Positions 14,612 to 18,085 of a stretch of 31,111 nucleotides of DNA are shown piece by piece (the stretch's first letter is position 1; each line of letters opens with the position of its first letter). This stretch comes from a virus. The notes under the pieces were generated by a model. That model did not search any database. It saw only the letters and a program-made list of their open reading frames with translations, and was not told where the DNA came from. The stretch spans positions 1 to 31,111 of the IMG/VR virus record IMGVR_UViG_3300020202_000184, one strand, 5' to 3'. The translations under genes were made by a program, and so were the position numbers.

Positions 14612-15721
14612 TTATTTGTTGTTAGTTTTAGATTTATTTGTTATTTCTGCCATTACTGCTGCCATATTATAGGGCTTTGTTTCTGAGTCAGTTTGATTAA
14701 TTATTTTTACACCTGTCTTATTGATAGGCAAGCCTTCTATTAGTTCCTTCGTGCCATCAAGGTCTGCTATTGCTTTGTTTGTCCACTTATCGATTGTTTC
14801 TTTGTCGTTTTTAATTCTGCCTTCCTTTGCAAATCTTTCAATCATGGTTTTTGCCTGGTTTTTAATTGCTTCTTCTTTTGCAATCTTGGCAGCATCTTCC
14901 GCATCCTGTTTTTCCTTCTTTAATGCGGTTAGTTCGGCTTCCTTTTTTGAAAGATCTTCTTTAGCAGAATCCAGATCATTTTTTAATCCATCTGCTTCTT
15001 TGGTTTTAGCAGTTAGTTTATTTTCTATGGCCTCAATCCCAGCCAAGATTGATTCTTCATTGGCATTATCAAGTAGGCCTAGTTTATTTGTTACTTTTTT
15101 CATTTGTATTTCTTTTTTTGGTTGCTCAACCAGTTTGTTGACTACTAATTTTAATTTGTTGTAAGCCGCTATTGGTGTTTTATTGTCAAACCTCTCTTTC
15201 ACCTCTACCCCACATTCTGTATCTATCTCATCGTAGAATCCATAACTCAATGCATCGTCTGGGCTTATCCATGTTTCCTCTGCCATTCTCTGCTTCACCC
15301 AATTTTCTGATTTGTTGCACCTGCTTGCAAGAATTGAAATAATAGATTCATTTATTGCATTTAGTGCCTTATCATCTCCGCCGCTTGAATTGTGCATCAT
15401 AGTGGGAGCATAGTAGTTGCATATTCTATATTTGCCTCCTTGTATAATCCACCCTGCTGCACTTGCTGCCATTCCAACATTCCGGGTTGTTACTTTTATA
15501 GTGCTTTTCACTATTGCATTGTAAATTCCCCAAGCATCTATGACTGACCCACCTATTGAGTTTACCCACACTTCACATTCCTTCTCCCCGCTGTTCTCTA
15601 GGAAATTTAGCTCTCGTACAAAGTCTCCTTCTGTTATTCCTTTTCCATAGAGGGGATCTTCTCCTATATGTTTGTCAATAAGTATTACAGGTTTATTGTC
15701 TCTGTAAATTGTCATGCCCAT
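14612..15721 (-). CDS. Prohead protease (ClpP-like) fused to scaffold
   Basis: 369 residues. Residues ~1-175 are ClpP-like: GGSVIDAWGIYNAI, catalytic Ser87 in GMAASAAG, His110 in MMHNSSGG. The third position falls in RMAEETWISPDDALSYGF, where Glu148/149 replaces the usual Asp. Residues ~225-290 are a charged coiled coil (KLTAKTKEADGLKNDL..SKKEAELTALKKEKQDAEDAAK) typical of scaffolds. Met207 (ATG at 15103-15101) sits just at the linker and could be an internal start giving scaffold alone, as in lambda C/Nu3. It is first gene of the capsid-tail operon, 46 nt downstream of the ATAGCATA motif. Confidence 0.8.
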   Translation of the reverse strand: MGMTIYRDNKPVILIDKHIGEDPLYGKGITEGDFVRELNFLENSGEKECEVWVNSIGGSVIDAWGIYNAIVKSTIKVTTRNVGMAASAAGWIIQGGKYRICNYYAPTMMHNSSGGDDKALNAINESIISILASRCNKSENWVKQRMAEETWISPDDALSYGFYDEIDTECGVEVKERFDNKTPIAAYNKLKLVVNKLVEQPKKEIQMKKVTNKLGLLDNANEESILAGIEAIENKLTAKTKEADGLKNDLDSAKEDLSKKEAELTALKKEKQDAEDAAKIAKEEAIKNQAKTMIERFAKEGRIKNDKETIDKWTNKAIADLDGTKELIEGLPINKTGVKIINQTDSETKPYNMAAVMAEITNKSKTNNK

Positions 15722-15765
15722 GATGCAATCTTACGAAGCGATAAGAGCGAATTGAGGAATTTATG

Positions 15766-15774
15766 TTATGCTAT
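15766..15774 (-). promoter_or_regulatory. ATAGCATA motif upstream of protease/capsid operon
   Basis: Plus-strand TTATGCTAT at 15766-15774; on the minus strand it reads ATAGCATAA. Its near edge is 46 nt from the protease ATG, close to the 42 and 48 nt found for the same motif before the connector and XRE genes. An A-rich tract precedes it on the minus strand. Likely a phage promoter element. Confidence 0.5.
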
Positions 15775-15787
15775 ATTTTTTTTGTGT

Positions 15788-15866
15788 TAGTGTATTTTAC
15801 TAGGTAACACTTTTGTATATTTATATATCGGTTTATTGCTTTATAACGATTAAACAAAATACACTA
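15788..15866. promoter_or_regulatory. 11-bp inverted repeat in the divergent promoter region
   Basis: TAGTGTATTTT (15788-15798) is the exact reverse complement of AAAATACACTA (15856-15866), which ends on the A of the ATG of the plus-strand regulator gene. A second, smaller dyad GTGTTA...TAACAC lies within it (15784-15810 region). These may be operator sites for the adjacent DNA-binding-like protein or fold as an mRNA hairpin over the start codon. Confidence 0.45.
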
Positions 15867-16432
15867 TGGGCGAACTACTAACTATCGACGAGAACACCAG
15901 GCTAAGACACTGTGAGGCAGTGATCGAAAAGTCAATGAATAGTTTTTATGAAATGGGGGTTGCGTTGAGAGAGATTAAGGATAGTAAATTATATAAGGAA
16001 GGTTTTAATACTTTTGAGGAATACTGTAGTTCAAAATGGGGAATAACTAGGCAAACAGGACACCAGTATATTGAAGCATCAATAGTTTATGAAAATGTAA
16101 GCCATGGCTTACAAATATTGCCCTCTAATGAAAGACAAGTTCGCCCCCTTACTAAACTCAAAGACCCCGAACTTCAGCAAAAAGTATGGCAAGAAGTAGT
16201 TTTAGAATCCAATCAGTCTAACGAACCTATTACCGCTAAGAAAGTAGAGCAAGTAGTAATGAAGTACTGCGAACCCTGCGTGAATACTTCAATAGAATTT
16301 AGAGTAGTAGCTTACCTAAATGCCTTTTACAGGAAAAAGCTGGACGAAAAAATGAATGGTGAAAAGGAATCAACTTTCATCCGGGATATGATAGAGAAGG
16401 TTCTTGATGGAAAATATGTATTAAAAGCCTGA
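15866..16432 (+). CDS. ParB/KilA-like DNA-binding regulator of plus-strand island
   Basis: 188 residues. The region RLRHCEAVIEKSMNSFYEMG, ALREIKDSKLYK.GFNTFEEYC, SKWGITRQTGHQYIEASIVY and ERQVRPLTKLKDPELQQKVW matches a well-spread family of plasmid/phage proteins of the type CEAVIE.G...F.EVG.AL.EIRD..LY...TFE.YC...WG. It is probably a DNA-binding partition/regulatory protein; the KWGITRQTGHQYIEA section is helix-turn-helix-like. It is the first of three co-directional genes against the prevailing strand and may control them. Confidence 0.6.
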   Translation: MGELLTIDENTRLRHCEAVIEKSMNSFYEMGVALREIKDSKLYKEGFNTFEEYCSSKWGITRQTGHQYIEASIVYENVSHGLQILPSNERQVRPLTKLKDPELQQKVWQEVVLESNQSNEPITAKKVEQVVMKYCEPCVNTSIEFRVVAYLNAFYRKKLDEKMNGEKESTFIRDMIEKVLDGKYVLKA

Positions 16433-16502
16433 AATTAGCCTTAGATAAGGGGTATTTGCTTTGAGTTATAGAATTGGGTATTTTTGTGAAAACCAGATAC
16501 CT

Positions 16503-16817
16503 ATGGGACAATTAATACTTTTTATCTTAGGCGTTATATTTTATTTTTTGCCTTCTATGCTAGCCAGTAATAAAAAAAATTATTGGTCTATCTTTCTCTT
16601 GAATTTACTTCTTGGGTGGACATTATTAGGTTGGGTGATCTCGTTGATTTGGGCGGTTATGGATGATTCTACAGCACCAAAACAAACCCCTCAACAAATT
16701 ATAATTAATAACCCTTCCAATGTTACCAATGAGTTATCCAAGTTGGTGGATTTAAAAGAAAAAGGCATTCTTTCAGAGGAAGATTTTAATAAGGCCAAAG
16801 CCAAAATATTAGGGTGA
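16503..16817 (+). CDS. Superinfection immunity protein with SHOCT tail
   Basis: 104 residues from the ATG at 16503; the frame also allows a TTG start at 16461. Two membrane spans (~3-20 LILFILGVIFYFLPSML and ~28-50 SIFLLNLLLGWTLLGWVISLIW) carry the LLGWT-LGW-IsLIWA signature of the T4 Imm-type superinfection-immunity family, which blocks DNA entry of incoming phages. The C-terminal residues 76-104 (ELSKLVDLKEKGILSEEDFN KAKAKIL) are a SHOCT domain. The stop TGA abuts the next ATG. Probably expressed from the prophage or early. Confidence 0.75.
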   Translation: MGQLILFILGVIFYFLPSMLASNKKNYWSIFLLNLLLGWTLLGWVISLIWAVMDDSTAPKQTPQQIIINNPSNVTNELSKLVDLKEKGILSEEDFNKAKAKILG

Positions 16818-17288
16818 ATGAAATATCTTTTCACTATTTTAATTTTCTGCTCCTGTCAAAAGGATCCTTACTGCCCTCCAATAGGCATTGTTCCTAATGA
16901 AGTAAAAACTTACTATGATTATTTTATTAATGAAGCTGAGAAAAGAAACATTCTTCTAAAAGAAAACAAGGTAGAAATAGTGTTGTCGGGCAAATTTTAT
17001 GTTAACGGTATTCCATATATAGGATATGCAGATAACGCCAACAATAGAATTACAATTGATACCTCGGAAGGTTCTTATAAAATTTATAAAGAACACGTGA
17101 TACTTCATGAACTCGGTCATTACTTCCTCCACAGAGACCACCGAAACGATAACCTTCCTAATAATAACCCTACCTCTATTATGAATTGCTGTAATTACAC
17201 TAATTTTAATTACTATCCTTATAAGAGAGAATATTATTTAAATGAGTTATTCTGTCCTCATACTGAATCACCTGATTGGGGTAATTAG
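16818..17288 (+). CDS. Lipoprotein zinc metalloprotease
   Basis: 156 residues. N-terminal MKYLFTILIFCSCQKD has a signal peptide with lipobox-like cysteines at 11 or 13, so a lipid-anchored product on the outer face is expected. HELGH at 97-101 with further His at 105 and 108 and a downstream SIMN at 120-123 resembles an HExxH(x)nH zinc site with a Met-turn. Many Bacteroidota lipoproteins share the HELGH-L-R-H..P.SIMN arrangement. Cys at 18, 124, 125, 146 could bond. It follows the immunity gene directly. Likely a lysogenic-conversion gene acting on the cell surface; target unknown. Its stop overlaps the stop of the converging minus-strand gene. Confidence 0.75.
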   Translation: MKYLFTILIFCSCQKDPYCPPIGIVPNEVKTYYDYFINEAEKRNILLKENKVEIVLSGKFYVNGIPYIGYADNANNRITIDTSEGSYKIYKEHVILHELGHYFLHRDHRNDNLPNNNPTSIMNCCNYTNFNYYPYKREYYLNELFCPHTESPDWGN

Positions 17289-18085
17289 TATTCTATTGTT
17301 ACCCATCCCCTATTAAATGAAGTCGAATCGAAAGAGGTGCTATCATAAGATCCTCCTGTCACTCTAAATAACCTTATTTTAGTTGAGTCTATAAATACAA
17401 CCCCTCCGTCCATGCCGCCTAGCGTATCTGTTAAATAAAGAGTAGATATAGAGTTGGACGCATCATTTATTATTACAACAGACGTGACTCTTATTTTAAT
17501 AAAATCTGCCCCTATACCATGATTAACATCTACCTGACTTGTAGCGTCCATATTCCAATCTCCAATCTCAATAATTTTAGTTTTTAATCTTGGAATAACT
17601 GACTCGACGCCTGCGGAGGTTCTATATATTGGTGCTCCCTCTAACATATATTTAACTGTAGCCCCATTATAATTAGCTAGCCCCGATCCTGAAGCCCCGG
17701 CAGACAATGCCAACTTATCCACTCTATGTAAATCTCTGTCTACCCCGTCGCTCCATGTTACCGGGTCGCCGGACCTGTAGTCAGTTACTACACCCCATAC
17801 CAATGTGTCTGATCCAGTGGTAATCAATGAGGCGTTTGCATCCACTTCATAAATCTCTCCATTGTAATAAATGGCTCCGGCTGTAATACTTGATGTTCCG
17901 GGAATATTCGCAGTAACCACGCAGCCGTAAAGTACAATCAAATCTCCGGTAGTGTATGATCCCAGCAATCCCTTAATGATATTGCCGGTAGTATCTTGTA
18001 TGGATTCTTTAATGTGGTCATGGGTAGCCTTTATATATGGCGCCTTCTGATTTCCTGTAATATTGGTGGTGTCTATTTTTTTCAT
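17285..18085 (-). CDS. Tail fibre / baseplate tip protein
   Basis: 266 residues. N-terminal MKKIDTTNITGNQKAPYIKA, then beta-rich segments with GLLGSYTTGDLIVLYGCVVT, AGAIYYNGEIYEVDANASLI. The C-terminus has IIEIGDWNMDATSQVDVNHG IGADFIKIRVTSVVI, a typical fibre tip module. Adjacent to the baseplate J operon, so it is probably a second, short fibre or baseplate-attached spike. Two adjacent Ser/Asp/Thr/Phe short repeats (DSTSFDSTSF) near residue 250 are repetitive. Confidence 0.65.
   Translation of the reverse strand: MKKIDTTNITGNQKAPYIKATHDHIKESIQDTTGNIIKGLLGSYTTGDLIVLYGCVVTANIPGTSSITAGAIYYNGEIYEVDANASLITTGSDTLVWGVVTDYRSGDPVTWSDGVDRDLHRVDKLALSAGASGSGLANYNGATVKYMLEGAPIYRTSAGVESVIPRLKTKIIEIGDWNMDATSQVDVNHGIGADFIKIRVTSVVIINDASNSISTLYLTDTLGGMDGGVVFIDSTKIRLFRVTGGSYDSTSFDSTSFNRGWVTIEY

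Follow-up and report, generated by a model that had tools for sequence, protein, structure and literature searches.

A cargo slot between fibre and head protease genes in Bacteroidota-type phages, and a predicted ParB-fold protein with a candidate binding site inside its own gene

Why do three genes run against all of their neighbours in the middle of a phage structural operon? The question is raised by an IMG/VR virus record, IMGVR_UViG_3300020202_000184, whose entire 31,111 bp were analysed here (the window). It is a 31-kb fragment of a contractile-tailed phage with the minus-strand order TerS, TerL, portal, Mu F, virion genes, baseplate J, probable fibre, the island, ClpP-type head protease, capsid, sheath, tube and tape measure, where several names are putative assignments made by reading the sequences. 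The capsid protein is ~30% identical to those of Bacteroides phage p00/BV01 and its relatives, and its neighbours are Mu-like; the host is probably of the Bacteroidota type. An earlier note on this DNA had described three plus-strand genes, opposed to all neighbours, between a fibre gene and the prohead protease, and a divergent control region of their own. Both descriptions hold: the three ORFs, I1 to I3, occupy 15866-17288, all flanking structural genes lie on the minus strand, and an AT-rich leader separates I1 from the protease gene (Table 1).

Table 1. Positions of the island, its candidate control elements and its borders in the window.
Feature	Position	Strand	Remarks
Divergent control region	15722..15865		Between I1 (+) and head protease (-); 144 bp, 27% GC, AT-rich
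Left arm of 11-bp perfect inverted repeat, TAGTGTATTTT	15788..15798	+	Candidate operator half
Right arm of 11-bp inverted repeat, AAAATACACTA	15856..15866	+	Reaches into I1 start codon
I1, predicted ParB/Noc-fold DNA-binding protein (ParT-like)	15866..16432	+	188 aa; without CTPase domain
Predicted recognition helix, I1 residues 62-79	16049..16102	+	Q63 and H66 covary with site
Perfect 18-bp palindrome TGTAAGCCATGGCTTACA, I1 codons 77-83	16096..16113		Candidate own-gene binding site (parS-like)
I1 C-terminus, residues 142-181	16289..16408	+	RHH-like by profile only
I2, two-TM Imm_superinfect + SHOCT protein	16461 (TTG) or 16503 (ATG) to 16817	+	118 or 104 aa
I3, putative lipoprotein metallopeptidase, metzincin-like	16818..17288	+	156 aa
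Probable fibre gene	17285..18085	-	Slot border
ClpP-type head maturation protease	14612..15721	-	Slot border; starts at 15721

Is the island a unit of its own? I2 and I3 abut, the TGA of the first being followed by the ATG of the second, and I1, I2 and I3 are therefore likely to form one operon. Because the first and third genes have full-length or domain-length homologues elsewhere, the island is more than a chance set of reading frames. At its far border, I3 and the fibre gene share a 4-bp stop-to-stop overlap (17285-17288); the label of this probable fibre gene rests on its position, and weak tail-fibre PHROG matches belong to its neighbour rather than to the gene itself. Independent expression is suggested by two signs, the divergent orientation and the separate leader. 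Scans for sigma-70 promoters and terminators gave no more matches than shuffled sequences, and a search of the divergent region for Bacteroidota-type promoters returned degenerate matches to a weak consensus, with no clear promoter or terminator. The 11-bp perfect inverted repeat of this region is modestly unusual, as 10 of 1000 shuffles (1%) attain 11 bp, and is a weak operator candidate.

Is the insertion site itself special? Relatives were gathered with TerL and capsid queries; in IMG/VR, neither the protease nor I3 gave a match as a single-sequence query, and alignments were needed. The gap between the fibre and protease genes is at least 200 bp in 47 of 47 mapped relatives (median 436, maximum 2704 bp), against a median of 21 bp for the neighbouring protease-capsid gap. 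The TerL-portal and Mu F-gpG gaps are long too, but these are mostly filled by extra sense genes; antisense genes are concentrated between fibre and protease. Small slot proteins of ribbon-helix-helix (RHH) type were made into a profile, which found a member in 53 loci, 33 in the sense and 20 in the antisense orientation, a strand count that replaces our first tally of antisense ORFs (27 of 47), which had included shadow ORFs. When half of the training set was withheld, each of three splits recovered 16 of 17 withheld members and 19 never-trained loci, with 62-65 matches among 7714 ORFs. Individual members have weak Pfam links (RHH_1, PSK_trans_fac) and PHROGs links to CopG-like and other repressors. 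The fibre-protease junction is a dedicated, exchangeable cargo slot in which a small RHH-type gene is nearly always resident, on either strand.

The cargo turns over even between close relatives. The closest, L004, is 80% identical to the window in TerL, 83% in sheath and 78% in capsid; it has no island gene in common and carries different antisense cargo, and identity drops to 49% in the fibre and protease genes. Protease identity is 37% close to the slot and reaches 78% farther off, a pattern that fits recombination centred on the slot. Homologues of the island genes were sought in all related loci of the set and none was found. In three relatives (L004, L095, L105) the antisense block consists of an RHH gene and a protein with a signal-peptide-like start, and in three others (L016, L029, L101) sense lipoproteins occupy the slot. 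T9SS sorting domains, suspected at the C-termini of the L004, L095 and L105 antisense cargo, were confirmed by neither Pfam nor NCBIfam. In further loci (L080, L085, L086) an antisense RHH gene shares the slot with additional sense-strand genes that resemble fibre or baseplate genes and encode 111 and ~560-590 aa, and in the p00/BV01-type Bacteroides phages (L002, L003) the TerS-portal block is divergent from protease-capsid, the strand break lying at TerS-protease instead.

Compared with related phages, the island is an insertion of accessory genes into an operon, and the proposal of a moron-like block, whose presence or absence was to be checked at this junction in relatives, is borne out by the variable cargo. 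The nearest analogue of the slot is the P22 ant moron/immI region, with its RHH repressors mnt and arc and its sieA gene (PMC2629481, PMC8022706, PMC10883804). Both are variable accessory cassettes of the late operon that adjoin a tail fibre or spike gene and combine small repressors with a membrane protein of exclusion or of an exclusion family. The island differs in its fibre-protease site, phage type, host phylum and genes and in its lipoprotein protease cargo. The slot would mark where envelope-directed cargo is located in a widespread phage group, a predictable place for exclusion or surface-modifying genes in Bacteroidota phages.

What does the first gene encode? It had been taken for a ParB/KilA-like regulator. 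The Pfam search of I1 matched neither the ParB nor the KilA family, KilA-N included, and what stands of the proposal is a predicted fold. The AF2 model (pLDDT 87, N-domain mostly >93) resembles the DNA-binding domains of Noc (6y93; Z 10.4, with 23% identity and an rmsd of 3.1 over 114 residues) and of Spo0J/ParB (4umk; Z 10.7); the Rubisco assembly factor Raf1 scores Z 12.5. The Noc and Spo0J matches point to a ParB/Noc-type DNA-binding fold spanning residues 4-138, with the CTPase domain absent. Residues 3-141 are 44% identical to cyanobacterial plasmid proteins, and further homologues lie on Streptomyces and Spirosoma plasmids. Neither I1 nor I3 matched annotated phages, PDB sequence searches gave nothing useful, and a search of more Bacteroidota genomes with the Spirosoma plasmid protein yielded no new homologue. 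Residues 142-181 of I1 match the slot RHH profile (E 3.2e-4, 16.7 bits; best shuffle 11.1 bits), the best match among 183 window ORFs; the AF2 model has a low-confidence helix and no RHH there. A mixed alignment of I1 and RHH sequences put the RHH rows in the wrong place and was excluded from folding.

Where would such a protein bind? The 18-bp sequence TGTAAGCCATGGCTTACA, within I1, is the sole perfect palindrome longer than 12 bp in the window, and no second copy occurs there at up to 3 mismatches. A simulated window is expected to contain about 0.14 palindromes of 18 bp, and taken alone this one is only suggestive. Homologous genes, however, have palindromes of other sequences in the corresponding loop, which lies between the HTH helix (VYENL) and an LPxNExQxRPL motif. 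In a first set of 28 genes, synonymous recoding gave p<0.01 for 14, and in the palindrome-bearing genes 3 of 294 other windows of the same size matched. A held-out scan followed, with region and score fixed beforehand; it gave 80 phage loci with 70 distinct genes, and one or two of the loci also belong to the first set (the L148 contig recurs as L218). A loop palindrome with a score of at least 14 was present in 53 of the 70, and these differ enough to make 48 sequences; among other windows of the same genes, 10 of 1500 scored as high. The remaining 17 homologues were without a palindrome of the set length. Synonymous recoding reached p<0.01 in only 21 of the 70, probably because the amino-acid sequence already favours symmetry, and the comparison with other windows carries more weight. 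Each of five plasmid records has its site once per replicon. Very probably, then, I1 binds its own gene. This putative DNA target and the conserved slot with its RHH-type gene, the strongest features of the locus, were absent from the earlier note.

There is a precedent for a site so placed. SCP2 ParT, the partition protein of a Streptomyces plasmid, is ParB-like and without a CTPase domain; ChIP-seq and BLI show that it loads at an 18-bp inverted repeat situated in the gene that encodes it, and it slides on DNA (PMC12260392). Because ParT binds its own coding sequence, the mechanism has experimental support in a likely relative of I1. The likeness of the two is one of features: a ParB-type domain, no CTPase domain and an 18-bp inverted repeat in the gene itself. 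I1 differs in being borne by a phage, of Bacteroidota type, with no ParA, and in heading a cargo operon. The ParT paper lists homologues from Actinomycetota and Cyanobacteriota, and the passages that term searches drew from it make no mention of Bacteroidota, phage-borne homologues, a conserved site position or a residue-base rule. Judged against those passages, the own-gene site is already known from ParT; what looks new is its occurrence in phages, its fixed position and the rule, described below, that links residue to base.

What might I1 do at its site? We favour, with moderate confidence, a reading in which the island is an antisense cargo moron in the slot, I1 binds the palindrome in its own gene and tunes the cassette, and the cargo acts on the envelope. 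The slot, the cargo turnover, the fold, the palindrome and its covariation with I1 are computed; binding, autoregulation, timing and exclusion are what we infer from them. The cassette would be transcribed from its own divergent leader. A dimer of I1 would bind the 18-bp palindrome and, by a roadblock or by spreading along DNA, block or tune transcription of I1-I2-I3 as a feedback. I2, at the membrane, and I3, as a surface-type lipoprotein, would go to the host envelope; made most plausibly from a prophage or early in infection, they would change the cell against competing phages. That autoregulation is the main role of I1 we regard as an even call.

Alternatively, I1 and its internal site could form a partition or DNA-marking device of the ParT-parS kind, with ParA borrowed from the host or a plasmid and regulation of I2 and I3 secondary. 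The SCP2 system itself is of this kind. On a Spirosoma plasmid (L176:1117-2687) ParA lies directly 5' of an I1-like gene with a 22-bp palindrome that has no second copy on that plasmid, and in phage contig L198 (238-1501) an ORF with the ParA motif adjoins an I1-like gene. Set against this, an ORF with the motif KGGxGK[ST] was sought across the window and none was found, such ORFs occur in just 2 of 92 phage and plasmid loci (short flanks read), and I1 heads a cargo operon. Since ParA is usually absent beside the phage and plasmid genes of these loci, we refrain from classing I1 as part of a partition system; both partition or marking as the role of I1 and the device as an account of the locus seem unlikely to us, if well worth keeping in mind.

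What of the other two genes? I2 had been called a membrane superinfection-immunity protein with a SHOCT tail, and as a label this stands: it resembles Imm_superinfect + SHOCT proteins, with both domains above the curated Pfam cut-offs (PF14373, E 7e-14, 51.9 bits against 27.9; SHOCT, E 8e-7, 29.1 bits against 27), and matches PHROG 1039, 'immunity to superinfection'. Exclusion comes here as a family label, and the family is not specific to phages, since PF14373 occurs in 18 of 148 sampled Bacteroidota genomes. Judged from these matches, superinfection exclusion by I2 is a tentative suggestion, on the doubtful side; an effect of this kind by the island is plausible. The earlier suggestion that the block alters the host surface and blocks other phages is borne out as far as the cargo is predicted to go to the envelope.

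I3 had been read as a secreted lipoprotein zinc protease. It has a lipoprotein-type N-terminus and conserves the lipoprotein Cys, HELGH-x2-L-x-R-x-H, S(I/L)M and a terminal ELF. Its predicted fold is metzincin-like, with MMP, karilysin and archaemetzincin heading the list at Z 7-8 (Foldseek E >0.01), and SIM resembles a Met-turn. The zinc motif HELGHYFLHRDH, however, departs from the canonical metzincin HExxHxxGxxH/D, having no Gly and its third conserved His one residue later, and we assign I3 to an unnamed lipoprotein family of Bacteroidota and phages. After the lipobox, its C-Q-K-D-P partially matches the Bacteroidota surface-export signal (LES), C-x-K-(D/E)2 (PMC5080379), with one acidic residue of two. 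Full-length homologues match in 8 of 345 sampled Bacteroidota genomes. Small lipoprotein metallopeptidases of this family are also accessory genes in phage contigs L134-L147, sometimes antisense to their neighbours (L137, L140).

Might these genes be late-expressed or decaying passengers without effect on infection? Of the 36 window genes, I2 and I3 are the two with the lowest GC, and, as noted, they are confined to the window among its relatives. All three frames are nevertheless intact, catalytic residues and lipobox are preserved, and homologues of I3 recur in 14 other phage contigs; we judge passengers improbable.

Does I1 read the palindrome in its gene? Most sites share the half-site TG-N4-C(A/C)A, with ends and centre constant and the middle variable, and the variable bases follow the recognition helix. 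Among 45 spacer-free cases, T at -7 accompanies Tyr or His at residue 66 in 28 of 28 and any other residue in 0 of 17 (p 9e-13), and G at -6 accompanies Arg or Asn at residue 63 in 20 of 20, against 0 of 25 (p 3e-13); the two columns were picked post hoc from a scan of ~100, in related sequences. Both associations remain perfect after thinning to <50% identity (n=11). The link is not a coding artefact, because the codons of residues 63 and 66 lie outside the palindrome; two residues of the loop, 79 and 83, associate with the site as well, and were discounted as encoded by the palindrome itself. I1 of the window, Q63/H66 with TAAG, obeys the rule, H going with T and Q with A or C. What the covariation supports is site recognition, and not DNA loading or diffusion.

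Could subfamilies simply have inherited helix and site together, leaving the covariation as a relic of shared ancestry? The relatedness of the sequences and the post hoc choice of columns would allow it. Yet the site is predicted by helix identity (rho 0.376; partial 0.389) and not by identity over the rest of the domain (rho 0.015). Moreover, nearest-neighbour pairs, of which 21 are independent, show residue 66 changing jointly with base -7 in 9 of 9 and both unchanged in 12 of 12, while residue 63 and base -6 changed jointly in 9 of 9 and stayed in 10 of 12, the other 2 being changes of the base only, with the R state fixed. We consider the ancestral explanation very unlikely. Least credible is an mRNA hairpin (attenuator or translational control) in place of a protein site: a perfect palindrome can fold as RNA, and the terminator scan flagged this one on the minus strand, but spacers of 0-2 nt, constant TG...CA ends and CAATTG or CCATGG centres are those expected of a dimer site, which moreover covaries with helix residues encoded elsewhere.

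Why write a target into the gene of its own reader? I1 is probably a member of a large, mobile, self-addressed family, in which each gene holds its own site at a fixed loop and the site is read by the helix of the protein that it encodes. Specificity and site would travel and change together, giving private, mutually non-interfering repressor or partition addresses under a simple residue-base code. A target so placed keeps regulator and operator matched through horizontal transfer, and because natural specificities are available by the dozen and seem to follow a two-residue code, recognition rules and phage or plasmid incompatibility can be tested directly. Palindromes embedded in coding sequence at the fixed position, with covarying helix and base, are seen in phage and plasmid loci L184-L263, L131-L133, L148-L155 and L168-L181. 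Elsewhere in IMG/VR, the I1 domain appears, as judged by eye, to be fused to regions like a ParB nuclease (L148) and a DNA adenine methyltransferase (L155).
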